Shown: one piece after another, positions 30,831-57,378 of the stretch | Numbering within the stretch: position 1 is the first letter of the stretch | Layout of the letters: each line of letters opens with the position of its first letter | Assembly: GCF_026210795.1 (NCBI RefSeq) | Contig: NC_089453.1 | Location: 188,501 to 252,500 of the forward strand | Direction: 5' to 3' | DNA length: 64,000 bases | From: Rhizophagus irregularis | Lineage: Eukaryota; Glomeromycota; Glomeromycetes; Glomerales; Glomeraceae | Notes under the pieces: generated by a model | The model's database searches: none | What the model saw: only the letters and a program-made list of their open reading frames with translations | Told to the model about the DNA's origin: nothing | Made by a program: the position numbers and the translations under genes

Positions 30831-30867
30831 GATTATATTTTGTTATTGTTTGCATAACTCGCAATAT

Positions 30868-30883
30868 CACTAGTCAAAAACCA
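30868..30883 (+). repeat. Left end of the LINE target: MITE terminal repeat
   Basis: CACTAGTCAAAAACCA. It is identical to the left terminus of the palindromic MITE at 57084-57099 and directly abuts the 3' end of LINE copy A. I read it as the proximal edge of the MITE that the LINE array split. Confidence 0.7.
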
Positions 30884-31138
30884 GGCAAATGTGGCATAGT
30901 AGCCTTTATCTTTATTAAATTTTATTCGAACTTCACAATTTACAAAAGAAAAAAAGAAAAATATAAAAATAAAACTAACTAAAAACAAAGCTATATAGTC
31001 TCCTAAGAAAAAATAAAGTAAAAATTAATCTAAAAAAGAAAAATCGTATTACACTAAATTTCCCTAGATCTTCCCCCTTAATATATTCCAACCAAAGTAG
31101 AAGCAACTATGCTAACAAAATAACGAATAGCGCGTCCA

Positions 31139-34100
31139 CTATAAAAATCGACACTCCATCCTGCAAAAGCTGTTATTAAGTAGCACCGTTAGACGACCCA
31201 TAAAACCCGAAAAGTGATTAAACCAAGGCAAACCATATTTAATCGAGTTCTTTAACCAATCAGTTCCAGAGTCACGTGAATCGTGTAGGGTCGGAGGAGG
31301 TAAAGATGAGTAAGGTTTGTACATTGACAATGGCAAATTAGATGGCTTTGAAGTAGTTTTCAACTTATAGGTAATATTCATCGCGTTTTCCCATCTACAT
31401 TTTTCATAAGAACGCGGATTCCAAATTCGTCGTCTGAATTTTTGGACAAAATTATTGTGAATAGCAGCGATAACCTTTATTGCAGAAATCCTTGGAATGG
31501 ATAAGTCGACAAATAAGTCAATAAAGAGTTTGGGTAAACAACCACGGACCAGGGCATAGGAGGATCAATTTGTAGAAGAAAAGGACCAGCATGAAAGAGA
31601 AGTGAGTTTAGCAATGAATGGAGTAGGATCGATATCAGCCAATTTTCCGGCTTCCATGATTTTGGAAATCAAATGATTTTGATAAGATTGAAGAATTTGT
31701 TGCATAGGCAGACGACGTTTTTTGCACATAAAAAGGTGCATCAGGTCTTCCATGCGGTTGATACAAGAACGGTAAGTTAATTCGTCCATGTATAAGTCTG
31801 GTCAAGTCCGTTTAAGCTTTTCCAATGTAGGCAAATCATCCAAGAAAAGTTTAAATTTAAAGGTTAGGTGTCTTGAAGCGTGCTCAGGAGTAAAAGATGC
31901 ATCATAAGAAGGCTTGAAATTTAAAGTGAACCAGGTAAGATCCCAGTCGACAATATAATCTATATTAGATGATAATAAAGAAATAAAGTGAAATCGCGTT
32001 AAGTCTAACAAATCATGCATTAACTGCGTTTGATAATATTGTTTGAGGAGGTGTCGCGGATTAGATTCACAGACAACATCATTGTCATAAGTTAAGACAA
32101 AATCATGAGCAGAGGCCAAGTCCATTCCAGAAATCAAAATACTGGATGACGCAGTATGAGCAGTATTGGCCAAGGAATCAGCAAAATCGTTTAAATAGTT
32201 GCCAGAGTGAGCTTTAACTTTGACAGGAAATACGGTCAAATTTTTGGAGAGAATGGTTCGCTCAATAATAGCCCAAAGCTCAAAGTTTGTAGTTTTGTAA
32301 TACAAATGACTATTCGAATAGATAAAGGAAGAGCAACCTCGAAGACCATCAATAGCAGTTTGCGAGTCAGTATAAATAGTGACTTCTGAGTCGCGAGGAG
32401 AAATAGTTAAAACTGCATAAATAGCAGCAGCTTCAACTCTAGAAGAAGAAGGATTGTCTCTAATAAGGCTGTGAGCATAAGTGGCAATGGAGTTAGGAAA
32501 GCCTGCATCAGGGACAATTTGCATCCAAGATCAGCCCATAGAAACTTCAGGAGTGCCTAGATTAATAAGAGACCCATCAGTGAAAAAGGTATAATGCGAA
32601 TCCGAAGAGATGACCAACGGGGAGTTAGCAAAAATAGCAGCAGCTGAGAATTCAATAGTGACAGGAGTAACAGAAACTTCAACGGTATCTGCAGAAGAGG
32701 AATCAGAAACAAAATCCAATCTACTATAATAGAGACGGACACCATCTTTTATATCAGCCCAAGTAAAGGGGGAGGTCACTTCGGAAGTATTACGTCTAAT
32801 CCGCTCATTGGTAGTAGGCAGAATAAGCGAATGTCGTAAAGAAACCGTAGGTGTACAAATGGTTAAATCAGCATTCCGTTTTTTAGAAGGAGGGAGAGGA
32901 ATATGGGCAGCGCAGCCAGGACAAGGAGAAAGTCTAATAAGATCTCCAGGCGAAGATTCACAATCAGGAGAAACCCAATGGACAATGGAACAAGTACCAC
33001 GACTTGTTTGGACCAAAAGTTGTTTGCCAAAGATGGGAGAACCAAGATCATCCAACGTGACAATCCAATTTTTTGTAGTGGGAGGAGAGGATAAACAAGG
33101 TTCCAATTCATAAAATGAAGAATCATTCGTATGCATAGTAATAAACTGATCCAGCAAACGATTATTGGAGTCAGGAATAGTGGTAGCTTGTTGAATATCT
33201 TTGTACCAATAAGGGATACGACCAGGGCCACGTTGTCCAACCAAATTGTCATAATAAGCCTTCCAGGAAATTAAATGAGTTCCTTGGGGAGTAACCAGCT
33301 GAGATAAATAAAACAGTTGTTGTTTCCGCAGAATGGAGAAATAAGCTCTAAAGGCTTTAGGCGTCATGCATTCAAATAAAGGAACGCATCCATCTAACAG
33401 AGATAAGTTCGGAAGCTTCGAAAGTTGAGTATGAAGCAAACGAAAAGGAGTAGAAGTTAAGAGAGCAATAGTGCATGCGAAATAATCTTTCTTAAAAGAA
33501 AATAGAGAAGACCATATAGACCAGTCCTTAATTAAAAGGGGAGAAATAGGAATCAAAAAATTATATTGAATTAAACACAATCTATAAATAAAAAGAGATT
33601 GAATAAATGAAGAAGAAGAATTAGCCATTAAAAATAAATTAGTAATATGACATTGTCGTTGATAAGCAAACAAATTAATCAGGCCCAAGGCTTGAGATAA
33701 AAATAGAATAGGATTGGGTAAAGAACGAGAAAAATTTGCTTTGTGCTTAACAACAGATCGTATACTTCTCGTTACTAGGTGGCAGTCAGATTCAGACAAG
33801 TGAGTAACTTGCATTCGGTATTCAAGTTTTGGTATAAGAACAGCATTATGTAAATACACGACTTGCTTGGGAGAGAGCTTTGCCGGTCGGATGGTCGCAG
33901 CAAAGGAGCAGCATTCGCGTTTGAGTTGCTTTTTGACAAAATCACGGGAACTCTTAATGTTAAACCAGACACCTAAAAAACGAAAAGAAGTTGTCATGGA
34001 AATTGGGGTAATAGTAATAGAAGGAACACTATTTAAAGAGGATAAATTCAAATTAAAAGTAATAGGAGATAAAGTGGAATTCGAAGTCAAAAGCAACGAA

Positions 34101-36765
34101 TTAGTAATTAACACATATTTGTTATGATTGGCAGAAGTGTTATTGATCTGATAAAATTCTTCAGTAATGGATAACATAAATTCCATGCCAGCTTTTGACG
34201 AGGAAATAAGAGTAGAGTCATCCATAAAAACTAAATTATTAATCTTCAAATCAGGAGAAGGAGTTGGAGAATTAATTAAAGACGGTGTAGAAAGAACATA
34301 AGGGTCCATCATTTCATTCTTCAAAACAGTAAGTAAGGGATCAATATAAATAACCCATAAAAGAGGAGAGATAACTTCGCCTTGGTCAATACCAATGCGA
34401 ACCCTATAAGCAGGCGTAGATCCATGAGCAGTGAAAACGTGATTGGTGCGTTTCATGAAAAGTGAAAGGATAAACTTAACAGCAGAAGCTGGAAGACGTA
34501 TACGCTCTAGAGAAAACGTAACATTGTCAGATCGACCGAGTCAAAAGCTTTAGAGATATCTTGGGAAAGAATCCAAAGTGGGTTTTTGTTGATATTAGCA
34601 TCATGGATGATAGATTCTAGAGTAATGATAGGGTCGCGGCAAGAACCACCAGGAAGACCAGCAAAGTTACCATCTTTTAAGACGTTATGTGAAGCCATAG
34701 TAGTAGAGAGGCGATTATAAAAAAGTTTGACAAGAGATTTCCTAATCACTTCGAGTAAAGTAATAGGACGAGTATTTTTTAATTGACATTTCCATTCGTG
34801 AGGTTTGGGAATAGGAAAAACCATTGCTTGTCGCCATAAGTCGGGGATATCAGCTTTGGAGAGGCATGCTTGAATTAATATGAGGAGCAGAGCCGAGGTA
34901 CGAGTTCCAAGATGTTTAAGCATTTCATAGGTAATCATGGAAGGACCAGAGGCTTTACCGTTAGGAGTGGAAGAGACGGTGAATAACCATTCGTCAAGAA
35001 TAGGGGGATTCATTAAAGAATCATAGATGGAGGAGGACACATCATCCATAGGTTGGTAGGCAGAAGACCATCTATCAGGTAATGTATCGATGGATACAGG
35101 AGGAGTGAACTTTATAGGTACAAAGTTTTGGAAATGGTTAACAACAGCATCATCTATGTCCTTGGGATCCTTTAACAACTGGGGCCGAGTAGGGGTGTCG
35201 ATGAAGACACGGTCCAAAGTGATACGGCGACGGGTACGAGAAAGCGCTGAATCGATAAAGGAAGAAAGGTCAGTTTCAAAATTATTATTCCTATCATCCA
35301 AATGAGTACGGATGGAGGAGTCTTGAAATTCTTTTTCTTGGAGCAAATGAAATCCCCGTAAGGATTTTGAGATATTAGATAAATCATCAAGAAGCGATTT
35401 GAAATTATCTTGTTGACATGATGAAAGAGAAAAGGGCAGAGTAAGATTGAAAGTAAAAACTTTCTTATATAATTGAAGAATGTTTTGAAGTCTAATCAAA
35501 TGAATAGACCATTTATGCTCGTGAGCAGCAGAATAAGTTGAAGGATATTTGCGCAATATACGTATTGAGTGCATAAGGCGATTTAAGAACCGATAATGTT
35601 GAGTTAAAATTTCCAGATCTTTAGGGACCTTAGGAGTATAATTGTTGCCAACGGGGGAAGAAGGTAAAGTAATGTTGGCGGCTTTAAGGATACGTGATTG
35701 AAGGTATTCGCACATTTGATTGATATGCCAGGAGGAAAAAATCGAAGGTAAGACATCACATAAAGTGTCAGCTATCTCAGTGAATTCTGTCCATTGAGAA
35801 TCAGTGACAGAATCAAATTTGAAGACGCGACGAGTCTGGCGCTTAAGTTGTCGAGCACGAGCCAGTTTGGTAGAGGCGAAGAGTAAAGACATGTCATAAT
35901 ACGTGACAACAGGGTTATGATCAGATGTGCAAATATCTTGAGCATCAAAGATGCAGGCAGTAAGGGCGAATCCTTTAAGAAGAGGACAGGACCATACATA
36001 ATCAACATGAGTAATATGGTTATTACGATGAAAGGTACCTAAAAAGTTGGAAAGATTAATAGGAGTGTAGTCTTCATATCCATGAGAAAGGAGATGAAAA
36101 AACAATCGGTGAATATGTTTTGAAGCAATTTGAGGTTGATTAAAATAAATAGGGTAATATTTATCTAGATGCATATTAAAGTCGCCACAAACAGCATGAT
36201 AAAAACCAGCTTGTTTAGTAAGGGTAAGTTGTTGAATAAGCAAATCAATAGTGTCAGAGCGCAAATCACTTTCAGCAGGGGGAGGGATATAAATAACAAA
36301 TACACGCAATTTAACATTGCCTTTAAAGTATAGATCAATGGAAAGTAAACGTGAAGAATGAAATTTAAAATCTTGTACATGTGAAGCAAGGGAATTTTCA
36401 ACGAAAAGAGAAACGCCACCAGAAGAAAGAATTTGTTTAGAAGTATCCAAATTGGAAGAGAATACAGTATAATTGGAAATACGCTTGGATAAAAACTTCA
36501 TTTGTTTAGGGTGAAGATGAGTATCAACGATACCACCAAAAGAAATATGTTTTAAAGAAAAGAAAGTTGAAATTTCTTCTAATTTAGTTTGACTATACAT
36601 TTTGAGGCCATTAACATTAAAAGAAGAAATATTAAATGAATTGGGGATAGGAGAAGTGTTACTAGAGGAAGAAAATAACGATTCATGAGAAAAAATTCCA
36701 GTAACATTATTAGGGTTGAGAGGGTTCCGTACAAAGGTATCATAATTAAAATTATTGTCTGACAT
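31139..36765 (-). pseudogene. LINE copy A ORF2: APE endonuclease, RT, RNase H, CCHC
   Basis: Starts at ATG 36765. The APE endonuclease spans residues ~45-290 with FNVNG (49-53), VDTH (80-83), YIPPP (159-163), GDFN (194-197), DYVW (255-258) and SDHNP (281-285). RT follows with ILSQDISKAFDSVDL, GIDQGEVISPLLW and the catalytic FMDD. RNase H has FFTDGS, IYTDSQTAIDGL and VKAHSGNYLNDFADSLA. A C-terminal motif C-x2-C-x8-H-x3-C follows. Breaks: a frameshift near 34505 just after AFDSVDL, TGA at 32531 (after SMG, where Trp is expected), TGA at 31802 (from CGA) and TGA at 31565 (from TGG). All three nonsense changes are C:G to T:A. It is otherwise alignable end to end with copies C and D. Confidence 0.9.
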
Positions 36766-36815
36766 TAAAACACAATGATAAAAACAGTCGGGGAGTTAAA
36801 ATTTAAAGAAGAAAG

Positions 36816-38944
36816 TTAAACAGAAGAAGCTGAATCAGCTTGTTCCAAGGAAGCACCACCAATGGAGCTAATAAATTGTTTGATATGACCAGTGAGTTGG
36901 TCCAATTTACTTTCAATGACAACTCTACTATTTTTGAGATCGTTAATTTCTTCTTGCGTGGAAAAGATAGGGGTAAAAGGAGGAGCATTTGGGGAAAGGT
37001 GAGAAGAAGGAAGCGACGTGTTAGAAACAATGGTGGAAGGAGGCGGAGGTCGCGTTAAAATACTTCTGGGGGGTAAGGGAGATTTAGCAGAAGGCTGCTG
37101 AATGTTAAGCGGAACATGGGATACATGGGCATCTTCTTGCATGAGATCCAAATCAGGCTCATTAGGTGTAGAAAGCGGATCAAGGCCAAGGGGCGATTCG
37201 ATATGAGTCATCCGTTGGTCAGCAAGTTCAAGAGCGGAAATGCGTTTGTGAAAATTAGCAACTTCGCATTGTAATTCGCGTAGGAGGTTTAAAATATTAT
37301 TAGTATCATCAGAAGATAATGCGGAATTTGGAGTTTGTCGGGGCAAGGGACGTGCTGCAGAACGAGAGGAGGAAGAAAAGGAGACCGATCGTTCTTTACT
37401 ATTATGCCGGTTACGCTGGGAGGTATTGCGATTGGGTTTGTTATGATTGTTAACATTATCACTGCGATCACGAGAAACGTTATCATCACGTCTGAAAGTA
37501 GAAGCAGATTAATCCTTGGATTTAGATCGAGATCGGAAGCATGAACGTGTATTAGCAACGTTAGAATTAGAGCGGCGAGAAGGTTGATTAACATTAAACC
37601 GCTCTTTAAGTTTAGCTACAGGGTCGCGAGTACGACTACGTCCTCTAGTTTGTTTGAGCGGACAAAAATTTGGGGCACAACCTAATTTGCCACATCTGTG
37701 ACAAAGTTTATTAGTATTATCTGGGGAGGACCAGGAAAGCATTTTGCCTTGGAAGCTAACAGTTTGTTCCATAGCAGCATTCATGGTTTCTTGGGAATTG
37801 AAAGTGATGTAGGCCCATCTTTTGGGTTTGTAAGAATTTAAGGAAAGTGGCACATTGACAGCTTTGGTGCCAAGGTTACGAGTAAGAGGAGCCAAGTTGA
37901 TATCCTTAACATTAGGGGAAGCTGAGTGAGGGTGGCAACATATTGACGACGCGCAGCCTTTTGATCCACAGTATAAAAACATGGAGTGATTCTGAGGCAG
38001 GTGGAGAAGCAGTATACAGCCCATTGGTCGGTGAATCGAGCAATTGAATCGGCGTGATCATATACAATACGGGCTTGCTGGACTTTGGCATTAGGCCTAG
38101 AGAAGAGGCGGCAAGAGGTGATATTACCAAATTTTTTAAAATAGGCCATAAGGCTGTCTTTTTTAATGAAGAAATTGATATTGGTAACTTGGATAGCCCA
38201 GAGATCTTCATTGGATCGGAGTTGGCAAGGATCATGTGCATGAAAGATCAAGTCAGGGAACTCAGGATGAGTGGAACCAACGCACAAATCGCGTGCTTCA
38301 GCGGTATAGAAGTAGATAACGAGGCGGTTGGCTTTACCAGAGCCAATCATGCGCGCTTTTCCAGTAAACAACTCGTAAGTTTCTAAAAAAAGGTTATTAA
38401 CAGCCTCAATAAGGGCTTTGTTGGTAGGGAATTTCTTAAGAGATTCAGGGGCAGCATTCGGCGCAGCCGCAGCCTGAAAATCATCTCTGGTTATGGCGAG
38501 GGTCACCACTGGATCTGGAGTTTGATCGTCATCTGGAGCACCATTGGTATCCAAATTGGGTGACGCGTTAGAGGGTTGTTGCAAGTCTTTGTTTGAAGAT
38601 GCATGTATGGACGCGTCCACATTTCTAGAAGACGCGACGTGACTGGGCGCAGTTGGCGCAGCAGATTTTTTCGGGAAGGAGGTCAAAGTATTTTCGCCAG
38701 AGATAATTTGTTGAGGAGAAGAGGAAGGTCCATCTACTCCAACGTCAGCCGTCTGGTCATCGGCAACGTAGTCTTCTTTCATAGAATTTTCAGTAATCGT
38801 ACGATTACGTTTCTGCTGGATAGTGTTTTCACCATCGGAGCTTGAATTATCAGAGTTATTGTTATTTTTTCATTCTTGATGGGAAGCTTTCCTACTGTTA
38901 GGGTTATGACTTCCACGGCCTCTCTTGGCATAGTTACCAGATAT
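36816..38944 (-). pseudogene. LINE copy A ORF1: nucleic-acid-binding protein with zinc knuckle
   Basis: Aligned to copy D it should start at 38944, but the start reads ATA instead of ATG and a TGA (from CGA) follows at 38870-38872. From 38782 the frame is open through a Pro/Ala-rich N-terminus and an RRM-like region (LWAIQVTNINFFIKKDSL, NITSCRLFSRPNAKVQQA). A 1-base deletion near 37915, shared with copy C, shifts the frame to 38024-37509. That part carries a second RRM-like stretch and the knuckle CHRCGKLGCAPNFCP (C-x2-C-x4-C-x4-C). A TAA at 37509 (CGA in C) cuts the basic Arg/Ser region. The last part (37346-36816) has a helical, probably coiled-coil segment (NILNLLRELQCEVANFHK) before the stop 50 bases ahead of ORF2. 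Confidence 0.85.
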
Positions 38945-39075
38945 AGTAGAGGGCTTTGAGTTGGGAATATATAAATATAAAATTTTTATTAGTAGCTTAT
39001 ATTATTTTTTAAAAATAATAAAAAATTATTTTCGTCAGAAATTTTCGTTTTTGAAAAATTCAGGAGAGAGTTACT

Positions 39076-39091
39076 CACTAGTCAAAAACCA
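39076..39091 (+). repeat. Target 16-mer between LINE copies A and B
   Basis: CACTAGTCAAAAACCA, the same as at 30868. It separates the 5' end of copy A from the 3' end of copy B. Confidence 0.85.
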
Positions 39092-40669
39092 GACAAACAT
39101 GGCATAGTAGCCTTTATCTTTATTAAATTTATTCGAACTTTACAATTTACAAAAATAAAAAGAAAAATATAAAAATAAAACTAACTAAAAACAAAGCTAT
39201 ATAGTCTCCTAAGAAAAAATAAAGTAAAAAATTAATCTAAAAAAAAAGAAAAATCGCATTACACTAAATTTCCCCAGATCTTCCCCGCCCCCTTGATATA
39301 TTCCAACCAAAGTAGAAGCAACTATGCTAACAAAATAACGAATAGCGCGTCCACTATAAAAATCGACACTCCATCCTGCAAAAGCTGTTATTAAGTAGCA
39401 CCGTTAGACGACCCATAAAACCCGAAAAATGATTAAACCAAGGCAAACCATATTTAATCGAGTTTTTTAACCAATCGGTTTTGAAGTCACGTGAATCGTG
39501 TAGGGTCAGAGGTGGTAAAGATGAGTAAAGTATGTACGTTGACAAAGGCAAATTAGAAGGCTTTGGAGTAGTTTTCAACTTGTAGGTAATGTTCATCGCG
39601 TTTTCCCATCGGCTTTTATCATAAGAACGCGGATTCCAAATTCGTCGTCTGAATTTTTGAACAAAATGGTTGTGAATGGCAGCGATAACCTTAATCGCAG
39701 AGTTCCTTGGAATAGATAAATCGACAAATAAGTCAATAAAAAGTTTAGGCAAACAACCACGGGCAAGGGCATAAGAGGACCAATTTGTGGAAGAAAATGA
39801 CCAGCATGAAAGAGAAGTAAGTTTAGCAATGAATGGAGTAGGGTCAATGTCAGCCATGTTTCCGGCTTCCAGAAGTTTAGAAATCAAATGATTTTGATAA
39901 GATTGAAGAATTTGTTGCATAGGTAGACGACGATTTTTGCACATAAAGAGGTGCATCAAGTCTTCCATGCGGTCGATACAAGAACGGCAAGTTAATTCGT
40001 CCATGTATAAATCTGGTCGAGTCCGTTTCAGCTTTTCCAAAGTAGGCAAATCATCCAAGAAAAGTTTAAATTTAAAGGTTAAGTGTCTTGATGCGTGGTC
40101 AGGAGTAAAAGATGCATCATGAGAGGGCTTGAAATTTAAAGTAAACCAAGTAAGTTCCCAGTCAACAATATAATCTATATTAGATGACAATAAAGAAGTA
40201 AAGTGAAATCGCGTTAAATTTAACAAATTACGCATTAACTGCATTTGATAATATAGTTTGAGAAGGTGTCGCGAATTAGATTCGCAGACAACATCGTTAT
40301 CATAGACTAAGACAAAATCATGGGCAGAGGCCAGGTCTATTCCGGAGATCAGAATACTAGATGACGCGGTATGGGCAGTATTGGCCAAGGAGTCAGCAAA
40401 ATCGTTTAAATAATTGCCAGAGTGAGCTTTAACTTTAATGGGAAAAACTGTCAGATTTTTGGAAAGGATGGTTCGCTCAATAAGCGCCCAAAGCTCAAAA
40501 TTTGTAGTTTTGTAGTACAGACGACTGTTTGAGTAGACAAAAGAAGAACAACTTCGAAGGTCATCAATGGCAGTTTGCGAGTCAGTATAAATAGTAACTT
40601 CTGAGTCGCGTGGAGAAATAGTTAAAACTGCATAAATAGCAGCAGCCTCAGCTCAAGAAGAAGAGGGAT
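39092..40669 (-). mobile_element. LINE copy B, 5'-truncated
   Basis: 1578 bp: the 3' UTR plus the last quarter of ORF2. The 5' break falls inside RNase H at 40669 (...GAGGGAT), directly followed by the target 15-mer and copy C. Its 3' end starts GACAAACATGGC where the others have GGCAAACGTGGC. A 5' truncation on a normal 3' end is typical of aborted reverse transcription and argues for an independent insertion rather than an assembly error. Confidence 0.88.
39354..40669 (-). pseudogene. LINE copy B ORF2 fragment: RNase H end and CCHC motif
   Basis: The frame is open from 40652 to 39354 (~430 codons). It contains the RNase H Asp (IYTDSQTAID), VKAHSGNYLNDFADSLA, and the C-terminal C-x2-C-x8-H-x3-C motif (CRSCIDRMEDLMHLFMC). 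A TGA (CGA in copy C) sits at 40653-40655, next to the truncation. No start codon, endonuclease or RT, so it cannot act alone. Confidence 0.85.
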
Positions 40670-40684
40670 ACTAGTCAAAAACCA
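40670..40684 (+). repeat. Target 15-mer between LINE copies B and C
   Basis: ACTAGTCAAAAACCA, joining the truncated 5' end of B directly to the 3' end of C. Confidence 0.85.
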
Positions 40685-40855
40685 GGCAAACGTGGCATAG
40701 TAGCCTTTATCTTTATTAAATTTATTCGAACTTTGACAATTTACAAAAATAAAAAGAAAGATATAAAAATAAAACTAACTAAAAACAAAGCTATATAGTC
40801 TCCTAAGAAAAAATAAAGTAAAAAATTAATCTAAAAAAAGAAAAATCGCATTACA

Positions 40856-43800
40856 CTAAATTTCCCCAGATCTTCCCCCTTGATATATTCCAACCAAAGT
40901 AGAAGCAACTATGCTAACAAAATAACGAATAGCGCGCCCACTATAAAAATCGACACTCCATCCTGCAAAAGCTGTTATTGTAAGCACCGTTAGACGACCC
41001 ATAAAACCCGAAAAGTGATTAAACCAAGGCAAACCATATTTCATCGAGTTCTTCAACCAATCGGTTCCGGAGTCACGTGAATCGTGTAGGGTCGGAGGTG
41101 GTAAAGATGAGTAAGGTATGTACGTCGACAATGGCAGATTGGATGGCTTTAGAGTAGTTTTCAACTTATAGGTAATGTTCATCGTGTTTTCCCATTTACT
41201 TTTCTCATAAGAACGCGGATTCCAGATTCGTCTTCTGAATTTCTGGACAAAATTGTTATGAATAGCAGCGATAACTTTAATCGCAGAAGTTCGTGGAATG
41301 GATAAATCAACAAATAAGTCGATGAAGAGTTTGGGTAAGCAACCACGGATAAGGCGAAGGAGGACCAATTTGTAGAAGAAAAGGACCAGCATGAAAGAGA
41401 AGTAAGTTTAGCTATAAATGGAGTAGGATCAGTATCAACCAAATTACTCGCTTCCAGAAGTTTGGAAATCAAATGATTTTGATAAGATTGGAGAATTTGC
41501 TGCATAGGCAGACGTCGTCTTTTGCACATAAAAAGGTGCATCAGGTCTTCTATGCGGTCGATACAAGAACGGCAAGTTAATTCGTCTATGTATAAGTCTG
41601 GTCGGGTCCATTTAAGCTTTTCCAGTGTAGGCAAATCATCCAAGAAAAGTTTGAATTTAAAAGTTAGGTGTCTTGAAGCGTGCTCAGGAGTAAAGGATGC
41701 ATCATGAGAGGGCTTAAAATTTAAAGTGAACCAAGTAAGTTCCCAGTCAACAATATAATCTATATTAGTTGATAATAAAGAAATAAAGTGAAATCGCGTT
41801 AAGTTTAACAAATCGCGCATTAACTGCGTTTGATAATATTGTTTTAGAAGGTGTCGCGGATTAAATTCACAAACAACATCATTGTCATAAATTAAGACAA
41901 AATCATGGGCAGAGGCCAGGTCCATTCCAGAGATCAAAATACTGGATGACGCGGTATGAGCAGTATTGGCCAAGGAGTCAGCAAAATCATTTAAGTAATT
42001 GCCAGAATGAGCTTTAACTTTGACGGGAAGGACAGTCAAATTTTTTGAGAGGATGGTTCGCTCGATAATAGCCCAAAGTTCAAAATTTGTAGTTTTATAG
42101 TACAAACGACTATTTGAGTAGATAGAGGAAAAACAACTTTGAAGACCATCAATGGCAGTTTGCGAGTCAGTATAAATAGTAACTTCAGAGTCGCGTGGAG
42201 AAATAGTTAAAACTGCATAAATAGCAGCAGCCCCAGCTCGAGAAGAAGAGGGATTATCTCGTATGAGGCCGTGAGCATAAGTGGCGATAGAGTTAGGAAA
42301 ACCTGCATCAGGGACTATTTGCATCCAAGACCAGCCCATAGAGACATCGGGAGTGCCTAAATTAATAAGAGACCCATCAGTGAAAAAGATATAGCGCGAA
42401 TCCGAGGAAATGACCAGCGGGGAATTTGCAAAGACAGCAGCAGCCGAGGATTCAATAGTGACAGGAGTATCAGGGGCTATAGCGGTATCTGCAGAAGAAG
42501 AATTGAAATCAAAATCCAATCTACTATAATAAAGACGGACACCATCTTCTATATCAGCCCAGGTAAAAGGTGAAGTCACTTCAGAGGTAGTACGTCTAAT
42601 TCGTTCATTGGTAGTGGGCAAAATAAGCGAATGTTGTTGTTAAAGACCGTGGCGTACAAAGGGTTAAATCAGCATTCCATTTTTTGGAAGGAGGCAAAGG
42701 AGTATGAGCAGCGCAACCAGGGCAAGGAGAAAGTCTAATAAGATCACCAGGCGAAAATTCACAATCAGGAGAAATCCAATGAACAATAGAACAAGTACCA
42801 CGACTTGCTTGGACTAAAAGTTGTTTGCCAAAAATGGGAGAACCATAATCGTCCAACGTGACAATCCAATTTTTTGTAGTAGGAGGAGAAGATAAACAAG
42901 GAGTCAAATCATAAAAAGAAGAGTCAATCGTAGGCGTAAAATTAAACTGATCCATCAAACGATTATTGGAGTCAGGAATAGTGGTAGCATGTTGAATATC
43001 TTTGTACCAATAAGGGATACGGCCAGGGCCACGTCGTCCAACCAAATTGTCATAGTAAGCCTTCCAGGAAATTAAATGAGTTCCTTGGGGAGTAACAAGC
43101 TGAGATAAATAAAACAGTTGTCGTTTACGCAGGATGGGAAAATAGGCTTTAAAGGCTTTAGGCGTCATGCATTCAAATAAAGGAACGCGTCCATCTATCA
43201 AGGACAAATTTGGAAGCTTTGATAATTGAGTGTGAAGCAACCGAAAAGGAGTAGAAGACAATAGAGCAATAGTGCATGCGATATAATCTTTCTTGAAAGA
43301 AAATAGAGAAGACCATATAGACCAATCTTTAATTAAAAGGGGAGAAATAGGAATCAAAAAATTATATTGAATTAAACACAATCTATAAATAAAAAGAGAT
43401 TGAATAAAAACAGAAGAAGAATTAGCCATTAAAAATAAATTAGTAATATGACATTGTCGTTGATGAGCAAACAAATTAATCAAGCCCAAGGCATGAGACA
43501 AAAATAAAATGGAATTAGGTAAAGAACGAGAAAAGTTTGCTTTATGCTTTACAACAGATCGTATACTTCTCGTTATTAGGTGACAATCAGATTCAGATAA
43601 ATGAGTAACTTGCATCCGGTATTCAAGTTTCGGTATAAGGACGGCATTATGTAAATACACAACTTGTTTGGAAGAGAGCTTTGCAGGGCGAATAGTCGCT
43701 GCGAATAAGCAGCATTCACGTTTGAGTTGCTTTTTGACAAAATCCCGGGAATTTTTAATGTTGAACCAAACACCTAAAAAACGAAAAGAAGTTGTCATGG

Positions 43801-46568: not shown

Positions 46569-46618
46569 TAAAACACAATGATAAAAACAGTCGGGGAGAT
46601 AAGATTTGAAGAAGAAAA

Positions 46619-48735
46619 TTAAATAGAAGAAGCTGAATCAGCTTGTTCTAGGGGAGCACCACCAATGGAGCTAATGAATTGTTTGATATGACCAGTAAGT
46701 TGGTCCAATTTACTTTCAATAACGACTCTACTATTTTTGAGATCATTAATTTCTTCTTGCGTGGAGGAGATAGGGGTAAAAGGAGGAGCATTTGGAGAAA
46801 GGTGAGAAGAAGGAAGTGATGTGTCAGGAATAATAGTGAATGTAGGCGAAGGTTGCGTTAAAATGCTTTTGGGGGGCAGTGAAGATTTAGCGGAAGACTG
46901 AATATTAAGCGGAACATGAGTTACAGGGGCATCTTCTTGCATGAGGTCCGGTTCAGGTTCATTGGGCACAGGAAGTGGATCGAGGCCAAGGTGTGATTCA
47001 ATACGAGTCATCCGTTGGTCAGCAAGTTCAAGAGTGGAGATGCGTTTGTGAAAGTTGGCAACTTCACATTGTAATTCTCGCAAAAGGTTTAAAATGTTAT
47101 TAGCATCATCAGGAGATAATGCAGAGTTAGGAGTTTGTCGGGGTAAGGGACGTGCTGTAGAACGAGAGGAGGAAGAAAAGGAGACCGATCGTTCTTTGCT
47201 ATTATGGCGGGCACGTTGAGAGGTATTGGGAGGGGGTTTGTTATGATTATTAGCATTATTAGTGCGGTCGTGGGAAACGTTATTGGCTCGTCCAGAATTG
47301 GAAACAGATCGATCTTTAGATTTGGAGCGAGATCGAGAGCGAGAACGTGCATTGGCAGTATTAGAATTGGAGCGATGAGGTTGATTAACATTAAATCGTT
47401 CTTTGAGTTTTGCAACGGGGTCGCGAGTGCGACTTCTACCTCTGGTTTGTTTGAGTGGGCAAAAATTTGGAGCACAACCTAATTTGCCACATCTGTGACA
47501 AAGTTTGTTAGTATTATCTGGGGAGGACCAGAAAAGCACTTTGCCTTGGAAGCTGACAGTCTGTTCCATAGCAGCATCCATAGTTTCTTGGGAATTGAAG
47601 GTGACATAAGCCCATCTTTTGGGCTTGTAAGAGTTTAGAGAAAGCGGCACATTGACAGCTTTAGCGCCAAGGCTACGAGTAAGGGGAGCCAAATTGATAT
47701 CCTTAACATTGGGGGAAGTTGGGTGAGGGTGGCAACGTATTGACGGCGCGCAGCCTTTTGATCCACAGTATAAGAACATGGAGTAATTCTGAGGCAGGTG
47801 GAGAAACAGTACACAGCCCATTGGTCGGTAAAACGAGCAATAGAATCGGCGTGATCATAAACAATGCGGGCTTGCTGAACTTTGGCATTAGGCCTGGAGA
47901 AAAGGCGGCAAGAGGTGATATTACCAAATTTCTTAAAATAAGCCATGAGGTTGTCTTTTTTAATGAAGAAAGGGATATCGGTAACTTGGATAGCCCAGAG
48001 ATCTTCATTGGATCGGAGTTGGCGAGGGTCATGTGCATGAAAGATTAAGTCAGGGAACTCAGGATGGGTGGAACCAACGCACAAATCGCGTGCTTCAGCT
48101 GTATGGAAGTGGATAACGAGGCGTTTGGCTTCACCAGAGCCAGTCATACGTGCTTTTCCAGTAAACGACTCGTAAGTTTCTAAAAAAGGTTATTAACAGC
48201 CTCAATAAGGGCTTTGTTGGTAGGGAATTTCTTAAGAGATTCAGGGGCGGCATTCGGTGCAGCCGCAGCCTGAAAATCTTCTCTGGTTATGGCGAGGGTC
48301 ACCACTGGATCTGGAGTATGATCGTCATCTGGAGCGCCATTGGTATCCAAATTGGGCGACGCGTTAGGGGGTTGTTGCAAGTCTTTGTTTAAAGGTGCAT
48401 GCATGGACGCGTCCACATTTCCAGAAGACGCGACGTGACTGGGCGCAGTTGGCGCAGCAGATTTTTTCGGGGAGGAGGTCAAAGTATTTTCGCCAGAGAT
48501 ATTTTGTTGAGGAGAAGAGGAAAAACCATCTACTCCAACGTCAGCCGTCTGGTCATCGGCAACGTAGTCTTCTTCCATAGAATTTTCGGTAATCGTGCGA
48601 TTACGTTTCTGCTGGACAGTGTTTTCACCATCGGAGCTTGAGTTATCAGAGTTATTATTTTTTCGTTCTTGACGGGAAGCTTTCCTACTGTTAGGGTTAT
48701 GACTTCCAGCCTCTCTTGGCATAGTTACCAGACAT
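46619..48735 (-). pseudogene. LINE copy C ORF1: RRM-like regions and zinc knuckle
   Basis: The ATG is at 48735, but a 2-base deletion near 48712 (AGCC for ACGGCC) breaks the frame after KRG. Further breaks: a 1-base deletion at about 48182 (LF then stop), and the 1-base deletion near 47710 that it shares with copy A. From 47821 to 46619 the C-terminal half is fully open (400 codons): RRM-like KRWAYVTFNSQETMDAAM, knuckle CHRCGKLGCAPNFCP, an Arg/Ser-rich stretch (RSRSRSRSKSKDRSVS), a Pro-rich linker, and a helical end (DLKNSRVVIESKLDQLTG). The product would bind the LINE RNA; that is a family inference. Confidence 0.85.
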
Positions 48736-48864
48736 AGTAGAGGGCTTTGAGTTGGGAATATATAAAATATAAAATTTTATTAGTAGCTTGTATTATTATT
48801 TTAAAAATAATAAAAATTATTTTTCGTCGAAAATTATCGTTTTTGAAAAATTCAGGAGAGAGTT

Positions 48865-48879
48865 ACTAGTCAAAAACCA
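48865..48879 (+). repeat. Target 15-mer between LINE copies C and D
   Basis: ACTAGTCAAAAACCA exactly between the intact 5' end of C and the intact 3' end of D. Confidence 0.85.
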
Positions 48880-49137
48880 GGCAAACGTGGCATAGTAGCC
48901 TTTATCTTTATTAAATTTATTCGAACTTTACAATTTACAAAAAAAAATAAAAAGAAAATATAAAAATAAAACTAACTAAAAACAAAGCTATATAGTCTCC
49001 TAAGAAAAAATAAAGTAAAAAATTAATCTAAAAAAGAAAAATCGCATTACACTAAATTTCCCCAGATCTTCCCCCCTTGATATATTCCAACCAAAGTAGA
49101 AGCAACTATGCTAACAAAATAACGAATAGCGCGCCCA

Positions 49138-52100
49138 CTATAGAAATCGACACTCCATCCTGCAAAAGCTGTTATTAAGTAGCACCGTTAGACGACCCAT
49201 AAAACCCGAAAAGTGATTAAACCAAGGCAAACCATATTTCATCGAGTTCTTCAACCAATCGGTTCCGGAGTCACGTGAATCGTGTAGGGTCGGAGGTGGT
49301 AAAGATGAGTAAGGTATGTACGTTGACAATGGCAAATTAGAAGGCTTCGGAGTAGTTTTCAACTTATAAGTAATATTCATCGCGTTTTCCCATCTACTTT
49401 TCTCATAAGAACGCGGATTCCAAATTCGTTTTCTGAATTTTTGGACAAATTATTATGAATAGCAGCGATAACCTTAATCGCAGAGATTCTTGGAATAGAC
49501 AAATCGACTAAAATGTCAATAAAAAGTGTAGGTAAACAACCACGGACAAGGGCGTAAGAGGACCAATTTGTAGAAGAAAAGGACCAGCATGAAAGAGAAG
49601 TGAGTTTAGCAATAAAGGGAGTAGGATCAATATCAGCCAATTTTCCAGCTTCTTGCATTTTAGAAATCAAATGATTTTGATAAGATTGGAGAATTTGTTG
49701 CATAGGTAGACGACGTTTTTTGCACATAAAAAGGTGCATCAGGTCTTCCATACGATCGATACAAGAACGGCAAGTTAATTCGTCCATGTATAAGTCTGGT
49801 CGAGTCCGCTTAAGCTTTTCCAATGTGGGTAAGTCGTCCAAGAAAAGTTTGAATTTAAAGGTTAAGTGTCTTGAAGCATGCTCAAGAGTAAAAGATGCAT
49901 CATGAGAAGGCTTGAAATTCAAGGTAAACCAAGTAAGTTCCCAGTCGACAATATATTCTATATTAGATAATAATAAAGAAATAAAGTGAAATCGCGTTAA
50001 ATTTAACAAATTACGCATTAACTGCGTTTGATAATACTGTTTAAGAAGGTGTCGTGGATTAGATTCACAAACGGCGTCATTGTCGTAAGTCAAGACGAAA
50101 TCATGGGCAGAGGCAAGGTCCATTCCAGAAATCAAAATACTGGATGAGGCGGTATGGGCAGTATTGGCCAGGGAGTCAGCAAAATCGTTCAAATAATTGC
50201 CAGAATGAGCTTTAACTTTAACAGGAAGAACTGTCAAATTCTTGGTAAGGATAGTTCGTTCAATAATGGCCCAAAGCTCAAAATTTGTTGTTTTGTAGTA
50301 AAGACGGCTATTTGAGTAGACATAGGAAGAGCAACTTTGAAGGCCATCAATGGCAGTTTGCGAGTCAGTATAAATAGTAACTTCTGAGTCGCGAGGAGAA
50401 ATGGTTAAAACTGCGTAAATAGCGGCAGCTTCAGCACGAGAAGAAGAAGGATTATCTCGAATGATGCCATGTGCATAAGTAGCAATGGAATTAGGAAAAC
50501 CAGCATCAGGTACAATTTGCATCCAAGACCAGCCCATAGAAACATTAGGAGTGCCTAGATTAATAAGAGACCCATCAGTGAAAAAGATATAACGTGAGTC
50601 TGAAGACACAACCAACGGCGAATTTGCAAAAACAGCAGCAGCTGAGGATTCAATAGTGATAAGAGGAGCGGAAACTTCAACAATATCGTCAGGAGGAGAG
50701 TCAAAATCAAAATCCAATCGACTGTAATAAAGACGGACACCATCTTCTATATCAGCCCAGGTAAAAGGAGAGGATACTACAGAAGTAGTACGTCTAATGC
50801 GCTCATTGATGGTGGGCAGAATAAGCGAATGTTGTAGAGAAACCGTAGGCGTACAAAGGGTTAAATCAGCATTCCGTTTTTTAGAAGGAGGCAAAGGAGT
50901 ATGAGCAGCACAACCAGGGCAAGGAGAGAGTCTAATGAGATCACCAGGCGAAGATTCACAATCAGGGAGAGCCCCAGTGAACAATAGAACAAGTACCACG
51001 ACTTGCTTGAACTAAAAGTTATTTGCCAAAGATGGGAGAACCGTAGTCGTCTAACGTGACAATCCAATTTTTCGTAGTGGTAGGAGAGGACAGGCAAGGA
51101 GTCAATTCATAAAATGAAGAGTCAATCGTAGGCGTAGTAATGAACTGGCTCAGCAAACGATTGTTGGTGTCGGGAATGGTAGTAGCTTGCTGGATATCTT
51201 TATACCAATAAGGGATACAGCCAGGGCCACGTCGTCCAACCAAATTGTCATAGTAGGCTTTCCAAGAAATTAAATGAGTCCCTTGGGGAGTAACAAGCTG
51301 AGATAGATAAAACAAATGCCGTTTTCGCAAAATAGGGAAATAGGCTTTAAACGCTTTAGGTGTCATGCATTCAAATAAGGGAACGCGTCCATCCATCAAA
51401 GTCAGGTTCGGAAGCTTCGAAAGTTGAGTATGAAGCAAACGAAAAGGAGTAGAGGATAAGAGAGCAATAGTGCATGCGATATAATCTTTCTTAAAAGAAA
51501 AAAAGAAGACCATATAGACCAATCCTTAATTAAAAGGGGAGAAATAGGAATTAAAAAATTATATTGAATCAAACTCAATCTATAAATAAAAAGAGATTGA
51601 ATAAAAGAAAAGGAAGAATTAGCCATTAAAAATAAATTAGTAATATGACATTGTCGTTGATGAGCAAATAAATTTATCAAGCCCAAGGCTTGAGATAAAA
51701 ATAAAATAGGATTTGGTAAAGAGCGAGAAAAATTTGCTTTGTGCTTTACAACAGATCGTATACTTCTCGTTATTAGGTGGCAGTCAGATTCAGACAAGTG
51801 AGTAACTTGCATCCGGTATTCAAGTTTCGGTATAAGGACAGCATTATGTAAATACACGACTTGTTTGGATGAGAGCTTTGCAGGGCGGATAGTTGCAGCG
51901 AAGGAGCAGCATTCACGTTTGAGTTGTTTCTTGACAAAATCCCGGGAGCTTTTAATGTTAAACCAAACACCTAAAAAATGAAAAGAAGTTGTCATAGAAA
52001 TTGGGGTAATGGTAATGGAAGGAACACTATTTAATGAAGATAAATCTAAATTAAAAGTAATAGGAGATAAAGTGGAATTCGAAGTCAAAGGCAACGAATT

Positions 52101-54769
52101 AGTAATTAACACATATTTGTTATGATTGGCAGAAGTGTTATTAATTTGATAGAATTCTTCTGTAATGGATAACATAAATTCCATGCCAGTCTTCGACGAG
52201 GAAATAAGAGTAGAGTCATCCATAAATACTAAATTATTAATCTTCAAATCAGAAGAAGGATTGGGAGAATCAATTAAGGATGGTGTAGAAAGAACATAAG
52301 GGTCCATCATTTCATGCTTTAAGACAGTAAGTAAGGGATCAATATAAATAACCCATAAGAGAGGAGAAATAACTTCGCCTTGGTCAATACCAATGCGAAC
52401 CCTATAAGCAGGCGTGGATCCATGAGCAGTGAAAACGCTATTAATACGTTTTGTGAAAAGGGAAAGAATAAACTTAATAGCAGAAGTTGGAAGACGTATT
52501 CGTTCTAAAGCGAAACGTAACATTGTCAAATCAACCGAGTCAAAAGCTTTAGAAATGTCTTGAGAGAGAATCCAAAGTGGGTTTTTGTTGACATCAGCAT
52601 CATGGATAATAGATTCTAGAGTAATAATAGGGTCGCGGCAAGAACCACCAGAAAGACCAGCGAAGTTACCACCTTTAAGAACATCATGTGTAGCCATAAT
52701 AGTAGAAAGGCGATTATAAAAGAGTTTGACAAGAGATTTTCTAATCACTTCAAGTAAAGTAATAGGACGAGTATTTTTCAATTGACATTTCCATTCGTAA
52801 GGTTTGGGAATGGGAAAAACCATTGCCTGTCGCCATAAGTCAGGAATATCAGCTTTGGAAAGGCAAGCTTGAATTAAAATAAGGAGTAGAGCCGAGGAAC
52901 AAGATCCAAGGTGTTTGAGCATTTCATAAGTGATCATGGAAGGACCTGAGGCTTTACCGTTAGGAGTAGAAGAAACGGTGGTTAACCATTCGTCAAGGGT
53001 AGGGGGATTCATCAAAGAATCATAGATGGAGGAGGGCACGTCATCCATAGGTTGGTAAACAGAAGACCATCTATCAGGGTAATGTATCTACAGATACAGG
53101 AGGAGTGGATTTTATAGGTACAAAGTTTTGGAAATGGTTAACAACAGCATCGTCTATATCCTTGGGAGCAGTTAATAACTGAGGGTGAGTGGGATGATCA
53201 ACAAAGACACGATCCAAAGTGATACGGCGGCGGGTGCGAGAAAGCGCTGAATCAATGAAAGAGGAAAGGTCGGTTTCAAAATTATTGTTCCTATCGTCCA
53301 AATGAGCACGAATGGAGGAATCTTGGAATTCTTTTTCTTGAAGTAAATGAAATCCCCGCAAGGATTTTGAAATATTGGATAAATCATCAAGAAGTGACTT
53401 GAAATCATCTTGTCGACATGATGAGAGAGAAGAAGAGGGCAAAATAGGAACGAAAGTAAATACTTTCTTATATAATTGCAAAATATTTTGAAGTCTGATT
53501 AAATGAATAGACCACTTATGTTCGATGAGCGGCAGAATAAGTTAAAGGATATTTGCGCAATAAACGTATTGAATGCATAAGGCGATTTAAAAACCGATAA
53601 TGTTGGGTTAAAATTTCCAGATCTTTAGGAACCTTAGGAGTATAATTATTGCCAACAGTGGAAGAAGGTAGTGTAGCGTTGGCAGCTTTAAGAATTCGTG
53701 ATTGGAGATATTCGCACATTTGATTGATATGCCAGGAGGAAAAGGTTGAAGGTGAGACGTCACATAAAGCATCAGCTTTATCAGCAAATTCCGTCCATTG
53801 AATTTCAGTTACAGAATCAAATTTGAAGACGCGACGGGTTCGGCGCTTAAGTTGTCGAGCGTGAGCCAATTTGGTAGAGGCAAAAAGTAAAGACATATCA
53901 TAGTATGTTATGACGGGGTTATGATCAGATGTGCAAACATCTTGAGCATTAAAAATGCAAGCAGTAAGAGCGAATCCTTTGAGAAGAGGGCAGGACCATA
54001 CATAATCAACTCGAGTAATGTGGTCATTGCGATGAAAGGTACCTAAAGAGTCGGAAAGATTAACAGGAGTATAGTCTTCATATCCGTGAGAGAGGAGATG
54101 AAAAAATAATCGGTGAATATGTTTTGAAGCAATTTGAGGTTAATTGAAGTAAATAGGGTAATATTTGTCTAAATGCATATTAAAATCGCCACAAACAGCA
54201 TGGTAAAAGCCAGCATGTTTAGTAAGGGTAAGTTGTTGAATAAGCAAATCAATAGTATCAGTGCGCAGAACACTTTCAGCAGGGGGAGGGATATAAATAA
54301 CAAATATACGCAATTTAATATTGCCTTTGAAATATAAATCAACAGAAAGTAACCGTGAAGAATGGGATTTAAAATCTTGGACATGTGAAGCAAGGGAATT
54401 TTCTATAAAAAGAGAAACACCACCAGAAGAGAGAATTTGTTTAGAAGTATCCAAATTAGAAGAGAACACAGTATAATTAGAAATGCGTTTGGATAAAAAC
54501 TTCATTTGTTTAGGGTGAAGATGGGTATCCACGATACCAGCAAAGGAAATATGTTTTAAGGAAAAGAAAGTAGAAATTTCTTCTAATTTAGTCTGACCAT
54601 ACATTTTAAGGCCATTAACATTAAAGGAAGAAATATTAAATGAATTGGGGATAGGGGAAGTGTTACTGGAAGAGGAAAATAACGATTCATGCGAAAAAAT
54701 TTCAGTAACATTGTCGGGGTTGGGAGGGTTTCGTACAAAGGTATCATAATTAAAATTATTGTCCGACAT
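49138..54769 (-). pseudogene. LINE copy D ORF2: APE, RT, RNase H, CCHC
   Basis: ATG at 54769. APE is open for 209 codons to TAA 54140 (CAA in A and C), then continues to 53516 with VDYVWSCPL and SDHNPV. Single-base insertions near 53522 and 53078 shift the frame. RT is whole in 53048-51402 (SQDISKAFDSVDL, QGEVISPLLW, FMDDSTLISSS). A shift near 51495 follows, then TAA at 51019 (CAA in others), a shift near 50970, RNase H in 50999-49377 (FFTDGS, IYTDSQTAIDGL, KAHSGNYLNDFADS), and a 1-base deletion near 49448. The C-terminal CCHC motif is present. At least two nonsense changes and five frameshifts make it inactive, yet catalytic residues are unaltered. Confidence 0.88.
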
Positions 54770-54819
54770 TAAAACACAATGATATAAACAGTCGGGGAGT
54801 TAAAATTTGGAGAAAGAAA

Positions 54820-56947
54820 TTAATTGGAAGAAGCTGAATCAGCTTGTTCCAGGGGAGCACCACCAAGGGAGCCAATGAATTGCTTGATATGACCAGTAAG
54901 TTGGTCCAATTTACTTTCAATAGCGACACGACTATTTTTGAGATCATTAATTTCTTCTTGTGTGGAGGAGATGGGAGTAAAAGGAGGAGCATTTGGAGAA
55001 AGGTGAGAAGAAGGAGGTGATGTGTCGGGAACAATAGTGAATGTAGGCGAAGGTCGCGTTAAAATACTTTTGGGAGGCGGCGAAGATTTAGCGGAAGACA
55101 GAATATTAAGAGGAACTTGAGTTACAGGGGCATCTTGCGCATGAGGTCCGGTTCAGGTTCATTGGGTATAGGGAGTGGATCGAAGGCCAAGGTGTGATTC
55201 AATACGAGTCATCCGTTGGTCAGCAAGTTCAAGAGCGGAGATGCGTTTGTGAAAGTTAGCAACTTCACATTGTAATTCTCGTAAAAGGTTTAGAATGTTG
55301 TTAGCATCATCAGGAGATAATGCAGAGTTAGGAGTTTGTCGGGGTAAAGGACGTGCTGTAGAACGAGAGGAGGAAGAAAAGGAGACAGATCGTTCTTTAC
55401 TATTATGGCGGGCACGTTGAGAAGTATTGGGAGGGGGTTTGTTATGATTACTATTATCATTATTAGTGCGGTCATGGGAAGCGTTATTGGCTCGTCCAGA
55501 ATTGGAAGCAGATCGATCTTTAGATTTGGAGCGAGATCGAGAGCGAGAACGTGCATTGGCAATATTAGAATTGGAGCGAGGTTGATTAATATTGAATCGT
55601 TCTTTGAGTTTTGCAACAGGGGTCGCGAGTGCGGCTTACTACCTGGTTTGTTTGAGTGGGCAAAAATTAGGAGGCACAACCTAGTTTGCCACATCTGTGA
55701 CAAAGTTTATTAGTATTATCGGGGGAGGACCAGAAAAGCACTTTGCCTTGGAAGCTAACAGTCTGTTCCATAGCAGCATCCATGGTTTCTTGGGAGTTGA
55801 AGGTGACATAGGCCCATCTTTTGGGTTTGTAGGAATTTAAAGAAAGAGGAACATTGACAGCTTTTGCACCAAGATCGCGTGTAAGAGGAGCCAAGTTGAT
55901 ATCCTTAACATTGGGAGGAAGTTGAGTGAGGGTGGCAACGTATTGACGGCGCGCAGCCTTTTGATCCACAGGTATAGAAACGTGGAGTAATTCGGAGACA
56001 GGTGGAGAAACAGTAAACAGTCCATTGGTCGGTAAAACAGCAATTGAATCGGCGTGATCATACGCAATACGGGCTTGCTGGACTTTAGCATTAGGCCTGG
56101 AGAAGAGGCGACAAGAGGTAATATTACCAAATTTTTTGAAATAGGCCATGAGGTTGTCCTTTTTGATAAAGAAAAGGGATATCGGTAACTTGGATAGCCC
56201 GGAGATCTTCATTGGATCGGAGTTGGCGAGGGTCGTTGGGCATGAAAAATCAAGTCAGGGAACTCAGGATGAGAGGAACCAATGCACAGATCGCGTGCTT
56301 CAGCAGTATGGAAGTGGATAACGAGGCGTTTAGCCTCACCAGAACCTGTCATACGAGCTTTTCCAGTAAATGACTCGTACGTTTCTAAGAAAAGGTTATT
56401 CACAGCCTCAATAAGGGCTTTATTGGTAGGGAATTTCTTGAGTGATTCAGGGGCAGCATTCGGCGCAGCCGCAGCCTGAAAATCATCTCTGGTTATGGCA
56501 AAGGTCACCACTGGATCTGGGGTTTGATCGCCATCAGGAGCACCATTAGTATCCAAATTGGGCGACGCGTTAGGGGGTTTTTGCAAGTCTTTGTTTGAAG
56601 GTGCATGTATGGACGCGTCCACATTTCCAGAAGACGCGACGTGACTGGGCGCAGTTGGCGCAGCAGATTTTTTCGGGGGGGGAGGCCAAAGTATTTTCGC
56701 CAGAGATATTTTGTTGAGGAGAAGAGGAAGGTCCATCTACTCCAACGTCAGCCGTCTGGTCATCGGCAACGTAGTCTTCTTCCATAGAATTTTCGGTAAT
56801 CGTACGATTACGTTTCTGCTGGATAGTGTTTTCGCCATCGGAGCTTGAATTATCGGAGTTGTTATTATTTTTTCGTTCTTGACGGGAAGCTTTCCTACTG
56901 TTAGGGTTATGACTTCCACGGCCTCTCTTGGCATAGTTACCAGACAT
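54820..56947 (-). pseudogene. LINE copy D ORF1: RRM-like regions and zinc knuckle
   Basis: The only copy with both the ATG (56947) and an open N-terminus (KRGRGSHNPNSRKASRQERK). An inserted G in the G run near 56685 shifts the frame. Downstream, the region between about 56033 and 55967 is out of frame between a 1-base loss and a 1-base gain. Unlike A and C it keeps LTQLPPNVKDINLAPL unshifted (frame 56212-55667). The knuckle is disturbed after CHRCGKLGC by extra bases near 55672, and the Ser/Arg and C-terminal regions are again shifted (near 55130-55190). The stop is at 54820, 50 bases before ORF2, as in the other copies. Confidence 0.85.
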
Positions 56948-57083
56948 AGTAGAGGGCTTTGAGTTGGGAATATATAAAATATAAAATTTTATTAGTAGCT
57001 TGTATTATTTTTAAAAATAATAAAAAATTATTTTCGTCGGAAATTTTCGGTTTTGAAAAATTCAGGAGAGAGTTACTACTGGT

Positions 57084-57378
57084 CACTAGTCAAAAACCAA
57101 TATATCGGGTAGCAGATATGTATCAGATATGTACCCGATATGTGTAGTATTAATGCAGAAAATCGGGTATCCGATATGTGTAAGATATGTGTAAATATAT
57201 ATATCGTCTACATATCATTTACATATCATATACATATCGGTACCCGATATGTATATGATATATATATTTACATATATCTTACACATATCGGGTACCCGAT
57301 TTTCTGCATTAATACTACACATATCGGGTACATATCTGATACATATCTGCTACCCGATATATTGGTTTTTGACCAGTG
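57084..57378. mobile_element. Near-perfect palindromic MITE, 295 bp (LINE target)
   Basis: Left arm from CACTAGTCAAAAACCAATAT; the right end, as reverse complement, is CACTGGTCAAAAACCAATAT. The arms match over more than 120 bases with only a handful of differences, so the insertion is recent. It is built from CCGATATGT/ACATATCGG phrases. TA follows the right end (57379-57380), as for Tc1/mariner-type elements. On the left its flank is the 5' end of LINE D; its original left flank is probably at 30867 (...CGCAATAT). Confidence 0.85.

Follow-up and report, generated by a model that had tools for sequence, protein, structure and literature searches.

A site-specific LINE at the end of a CACTA-like MITE in Rhizophagus irregularis, and its sister families with other targets

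What does it mean that four copies of one LINE lie head to tail in the genome of Rhizophagus irregularis, with the same 15 bases at every joint, and that these bases are also found at the end of a DNA-transposon MITE? The question was raised by a window of 64 kb (C25:188501-252500, the whole stretch of DNA that was analysed), for which a preliminary description had proposed that a LINE enters the terminal repeat of the MITE site-specifically, leaving the target on both sides of each insertion. We pursued it in the window and in a genome search of 146.7 Mb on 32 contigs, and the answer in which we have great confidence is that the array belongs to a site-specific non-LTR retrotransposon that enters the end of a CACTA-like MITE by what is probably target-primed insertion with a 15-bp duplication, repeated entry building head-to-tail arrays.

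A search of the window found the 15-mer ACTAGTCAAAAACCA exactly at 30869, 39077, 40670, 48865 and 57085, the five junctions at which it had been described; at up to two mismatches there are seven matches in the window, against 0.24 in shuffles, the seventh (two mismatches) being at 12833. Comparison of the window with itself by self-BLAST revealed that the array is one LINE in four copies, A to D, all on the minus strand and pairwise about 89-91% identical, of which A, C and D are each about 8.2 kb and B, as had been claimed, is 5'-truncated. On the left the array meets CACTAGTCAAAAACCA (30868-30883, plus strand), which would be the outer terminus of the MITE that it interrupts; 30869-30883 (plus strand) within it is the target-site duplication of 15 bp on the 3' side of copy A, and both were placed from the exact 15-mer and a reading of the junction. 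Copy A (30884-39076, minus strand; self-BLAST and Pfam) is near full length with remnants of ORF1 and ORF2, including Pfam RVT_1 matches of 1.9e-07 and 1.4e-08 on two pieces and a weak Exo_endo_phos_2. There follow the target-site duplication of the A/B joint (39077-39091, plus strand), the truncated copy B of about 1.6 kb (39092-40669, minus strand; self-BLAST), the duplication of the B/C joint (40670-40684, plus strand), copy C (40685-48864, minus strand; self-BLAST and Pfam), which is near full length with reverse transcriptase (RVT_1, 4.7e-21) and RNase H (RNase_H, 1.9e-10) matches, the duplication of the C/D joint (48865-48879, plus strand), and copy D (48880-57074, minus strand), near full length by self-BLAST and with an RVT_1 match of 1.6e-21; the three joint duplications were placed by the exact 15-mer and by comparison of its variants. 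The 5' junctions differ much as had been noted, since C has no filler, A has TC or ACTC, and D has the target-like ACTACTGGTC at its 5' end (57075-57084, no strand assigned; read from the junction, with similar fillers present genome-wide), the last base of which, 57084, is counted in the MITE too, as its first. A 256-bp tandem repeat of 2.8 copies (30104-30847) adjoins the 3' flank of the array.

The MITE itself (57084-57378, plus strand; self-comparison), the target, is a 295-bp near-perfect palindrome with 92% identity to its own reverse complement, and the MITE-side copy of the 15-bp duplication (57085-57099, plus strand) lies within it. That the 15-mer of the last junction is the terminus of a palindromic MITE was borne out both by this palindrome and by a one-mismatch copy of ACTAGTCAAAAACCA on the minus strand at 57363-57377. 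Genome-wide, 40 MITE copies were scored from 379 candidates, and of 25 loci given to a parser 23 were parsed. In 14 of these 23 the CACT(A/G) ends were flanked by an exact duplication of 3 bp; by eye, the other nine had a LINE or SINE-like element at an end (six) or mutated ends (three), and among the 17 parsed loci with no retroelement inserted at an end the duplication was present in 14. A conserved end motif and a 3-bp duplication are given for CACTA/EnSpm elements in the accessible part of PMC8978399, and it is because the target MITE has CACT(A/G) ends and the 3-bp duplication in common with them that it is, by the sequence of its copies, CACTA-like. A Tc1/mariner reading of the MITE, with its TA duplication, was ruled out, the copies showing 3-bp duplications. 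A LINE or SINE-like insert was found at a terminus in 22 of the 40 scored copies (21 of 39 fetched, plus that of the window), a count from which matches of 17-22 bp to the SINE-like element, being the 15-mer alone, were excluded, as was locus L081 (C29:986501-986795). At that locus the nesting is reversed, the MITE lying inside LINE sequence with a TTT duplication.

Do the copies of the LINE outside the window lie at the same base? The LINE ends at its 3' side in ...GGCTACTATGCCACGTTTGCC, with no poly-A, and is followed there by TGGTTTTTGACYAGT. By eye, the 38 fetched 5' ends were preceded by a MITE end (...GATATATTGGTTTTTGACYAGT, a few being degenerate) in 23 cases, by the 3' end of another LINE in 13, by a SINE-like 3' end in one and by an ectopic sequence in one (L053), and the preceding LINE or SINE-like 3' ends include the 15-mer; a script recount gave 24, 13 and 1 for MITE, LINE and SINE-like ends, its loose MITE rule admitting the ectopic L053. 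Copies with unrelated flanks were thus rare, insertion being at one exact base of the repeated target for 37 of 38 5' ends, which follow a MITE or retroelement end, and for 35 of 37 fetched 3' ends, which carry the whole 15-mer (L012 has its start only, and L020 a different sequence), in samples that are biased towards the target since their queries contained the 15-mer; the tail census described below is unbiased.

Such regularity at the 3' end raises a second question, namely whether TGGTTTTTGACYAGT belongs simply to the 3' end of the LINE itself and has inherited its resemblance to the MITE end with the RNA. Nearly every copy of this LINE, family 1, does carry it (the same 35 of 37), and a read-through RNA could carry it too. 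The variants of the 15-mer argue otherwise. Of 31 insertions outside the window with both ends available, 29 had a 15-mer that could be called at either end (the other two being the ectopic copy and L055, with a degenerate MITE end), and the 5' and 3' variants were identical at 25 of the 29, against a permutation mean of 6.5 and with none of 20,000 permutations reaching that number, some of the pairs sharing an array and so not all being independent. Rare variants, TAGTTTTTGGCCAGT, TGGTTTTTAACTAGC and TAGTTTTTGACTAGT, are among those matched, and the four mismatched pairs comprise two T/C differences at CpG, one truncated-LINE junction and one two-base difference; in the window, the variants agree for copies A, C and D, B being outside the scoring. 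The 15-mer therefore follows the local 5' flank, and the claim that each insertion leaves the target on both sides was upheld. In the ectopic copy (C11:3569872 to 3561645), TAGATCACTTTTAAC stands, by eye, on both sides, 15 bp in length and directly after TTTGCC, and this different duplication implies that the LINE ends at GCC and that the 15-mer is target; the sister families likewise have the same tail and then other sequences. Taken together, these sequences identify the 15-mer of the junctions as a 15-bp duplication of the MITE end and make it very improbable that it is the LINE's own terminus. The same duplication accompanies a 32-bp 5'-truncated LINE at the other MITE end (L042).

If the target is the MITE end, then the array splits a MITE, as had been suggested for the window. 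The 3-bp flank at the undisturbed MITE end was compared with the one lying past the LINE or array on the opposite side; 11 of 15 loci gave a match, against 1.7 on average under permutation and with none of 20,000 permutations reaching that number, and two of the 11, L051 and L058, need a terminal G-to-A change in the MITE. The suggestion thus holds at most testable loci genome-wide, but in the window the MITE's 3-bp duplication is off by one base (TAT against TAA). The remaining failures are C6:2598544 (CTT/CCT), C10:2327946 and C12:2497477, and at the last two, LINE or truncated SINE-like sequence lies on the MITE's other side, so that the compared flank may not be the MITE's own and the tests are perhaps unfair; a sixteenth locus, L101/L160, fails by eye (CAA/TAA). 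At C1:81730-90270, LINEs occupy both ends of one MITE, one of them being only 32 bp, and the outer flanks still match. These flanks bear also on the reversed order of events, in which the MITE would insert beside LINE 3' ends or would have taken its terminus from the LINE. Association alone carries no direction, and the MITE of L081 did enter a LINE; against this, MITEs at other loci have 3-bp duplications of their own (14 of 23), at 11 of 15 loci the 3-bp duplication encloses the LINE or array in full, and the 15-mer duplication flanks the LINE and not the MITE, so that the reversed order is hardly credible.

How, then, would entry of the LINE into the MITE end produce an array? In LINE orientation the target reads GATATAT^TGGTTTTTGACYAGT^G, the end of the CACTA-like MITE. 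We infer that the bottom strand would be nicked right after GATATAT (GATATAT^TGGTTTTT) by the element's own predicted endonuclease, that target-primed reverse transcription would start at the 3' end of the LINE RNA, which reads ...TTTGCC and has no poly-A, that the top strand would be cut 15 bp further, immediately before the final base of the MITE, and that repair would give the 15-bp duplication on both sides. Since the target is thereby remade on both sides, later LINEs could enter at the same place, unit after unit in this presumed order, and head-to-tail arrays would result, with some units truncated and with fillers of (AGT)n or of repeated target pieces at the 5' joints, produced via slippage or template jumps. 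Fillers of both kinds were seen at 5' joints elsewhere in the genome, as were truncated units inside arrays, and single insertions are also present.

The head-to-tail spacing of 8.2 kb would be expected as well if unequal crossing-over, between LINE copies or between 15-mers, had been the main way in which arrays grew, and on C5 two loci with a common unusual junction, L041 and L046, do point to duplication there. The units in the window, however, are diverged by about 10%, the fillers differ, truncated units lie within arrays and single insertions exist, all of which makes crossing-over an unlikely main source of the arrays. The divergence among the window copies also argues against a duplicated assembly artefact, and misassembly of dispersed LINE copies is scarcely to be believed when dozens of loci, spread over different contigs, show these junctions, each in its local flanks and with duplications that match. 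The preferred reading remains repeated entry at a remade target. The filler common to L041 (C5:1983161) and L046 (C5:1885861), which lie on opposite strands, suggests an inverted duplication or composite movement.

The reverse transcriptase of the element is of LINE type (Pfam RVT_1 up to 1.6e-21), and its best PDB matches were 8c8j, an RNA-directed DNA polymerase, and LINE-1 ORF2 entries. As to a possible endonuclease domain upstream of it, Pfam gave Exo_endo_phos_2 (7.2e-05) and Exo_endo_phos (0.0032), both under the curated cut-offs, and the putative endonuclease region contains GDFN and SDH motifs, which we take to be endonuclease motifs; a search of the region against PDB by sequence gave no match, and an AlphaFold2 model of the endonuclease had a pLDDT of 41.9, too low for use. 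A better preserved sister copy, L158, has an RRM in an upstream ORF (Pfam), and NCBIfam on a sister ORF2 gave RNase H and RT matches only, below cut-off. In the upstream ORF of copy C (window 46619-47854, minus strand) there is a borderline PAM2 motif, at 19.9 bits for a cut-off of 20.

Is the MITE end the only target of such LINEs? The LINE tail taken alone was found at 220 places at up to one mismatch, and tail plus MITE 15-mer at 115 at up to three mismatches, the reversed-pattern control giving 0 for each. The census drew on 100 of the 220 tail places, those listed with zero mismatches on contigs C1-C12. Among the matches listed, 56 of 100 tail places coincide with the MITE 15-mer, and the remaining 44, assigned from fetched flanks or from coordinates, comprise five more at the MITE (by eye, two with two substitutions and three degenerate or partial), 26 at a second target (five of these calls being from coordinates alone), seven at a third, three at a fourth and three elsewhere (the ectopic copy, L168 and L173). 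The hundred listed places thus divide into 61, 26, 7, 3 and 3, with 97 at four targets. Specificity for the MITE terminus, as originally put forward, is therefore true of this LINE and not of its sister families, which have almost the same tail and use three other targets; as judged from tails and flanks, at least four LINE groups share nearly the same 3' tail and differ in target.

TTGAYAAGGACTGATG, the second target, lies in a dispersed repeat that contains a short tandem motif, and is also found empty (L144-L147); Rfam on four loci of this target, and ARAGORN on one of them and on two SINE-like loci, gave nothing. The family at this target (L158 at C8:271900-280120, and L118-L137) also forms 8.2-kb arrays, and in one copy an ORF of 1614 aa contains RT and RNase H. 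The third target is the terminal region of a MITE that, for its AGGACCC ends and 8-bp duplications (by eye, GTATCATG in L152 and TGAATTAT in L154), we call hAT-like; a 31-base motif of this MITE has 397 matches at up to two mismatches, empty ends are present in L152 and L154, and its LINE family was found at L121, L123, L137, L152, L154 and L162-L164. The fourth target is TATAGTAAAATATC (L171, L174, L175), the empty copies of which, L183 and L184, read GATATAT^TATAGTAAAATATC, so that the bases preceding the predicted nick are common to targets 1 and 4. One family-2 copy aligned with family 1 at 67-77% identity, in segments that together span most of the copy, and one family-3 stretch at 68-78%, in segments that span a little over half of it and none of which aligns to the initial 2.2 kb of family 1; in the endonuclease region, amino acid identity to copy A was 70% and 63% for family-2 pieces and 62% for a family-3 piece.

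The same targets are attended by a SINE-like element of about 1.25 kb, with GTACTTTCTCCCCCGTTGGGCTCTGCCC at its 5' end, CATTAATTAATAAAATTC...TTTACC at its 3' end and no ORF of more than 150 codons. One copy, at C1:264.1-265.4 kb (L029, L151), has TGGTTTTTGACCAGT on both flanks; the 5' end of the element also occurs after targets 2 and 3 (L129, L166, L177, L179) and its 3' end before targets 1, 3 and 4 (L043, L153, L171, L174). The distance from junction to 3' motif was 1231-1253 bp at the seven loci measured, and the 3' motif has 54 matches at up to two mismatches. Rfam on L151 at a loose threshold gave 12 matches, all under gathering scores and all outside the element. The SINE-like element would, on this distribution, have been moved by several LINE families.

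A broader picture, to which we would give an even chance, is of a radiating fungal LINE clade, with sisters about 70% identical and one 3' tail, that specialises in parasitising repeated and mobile DNA. The choice among at least four exact targets would have switched from sister to sister, and two or more of these targets are terminal repeats of DNA transposons unrelated to one another (CACTA-like and hAT-like); each LINE would remake its target and so be able to build arrays, with one SINE-like element riding along. In the same picture, MITE and LINE may still be mobile together as a composite transposon, since a 16-bp copy of the MITE end is left outside the LINE. Close families in one genome with different targets, two of which are DNA-transposon ends, offer a natural series (endonuclease regions 62-70% identical) for how the choice of target by a LINE is encoded and switches, a series that bears on target-primed insertion generally. 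They also suggest where some of the large LINE arrays may come from in this TE-rich genome of a symbiont, two-thirds of whose TEs are said, in the accessible part of PMC11075540, to be unclassified.

Site-specific LINEs are already known, including one with a DNA-transposon target (Tx1L), and what seems to be new here is the fungal MITE-end case; the literature searched, with subscription papers and Repbase outside its coverage, yielded no MITE-end-specific LINE and no fungal transposon-specific one. As far as the accessible parts of the sources go, most target-specific LINEs described have rDNA, snRNA genes or telomeres as their targets (PMC8869645, PMC4640811), LINE targets include other TEs, with Tx1L cited through a title on the target specificity of its endonuclease (PMC8869645), and the APE-type target-specific LINEs, among them those of R1/TRAS/SART type, which are target-specific like this LINE, fall in the Tx1 and R1 clades (PMC4640811). 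The LINEs of R. irregularis have been annotated as R1 (PMC8647823, PMC11075540), with L1-Tx1 LINEs also named (PMC11075540), and the term "target site" is absent from the main texts of both papers. Among fungi, CNL1 of Cryptococcus and MoTeR of Magnaporthe are LINEs with a target preference, as here, and CNL1 occurs in subtelomeric arrays and is described as entering copies of itself; in the part of PMC12810828 from which this is taken they are telomere-associated and R2-related, unlike the LINE of the MITE end. There is a further likeness with Tx1L, of the Tx1 clade, which like this LINE is directed to a fixed position within a DNA transposon. In Xenopus that transposon is reportedly Tx1D; the R1/TRAS/SART targets, to our knowledge, are rDNA or telomeric repeats and not transposon ends. 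Tx1L is, however, a vertebrate element, whereas the LINE described here is fungal, enters the terminal repeat of a short MITE, possesses RNase H and has sister families with different targets.
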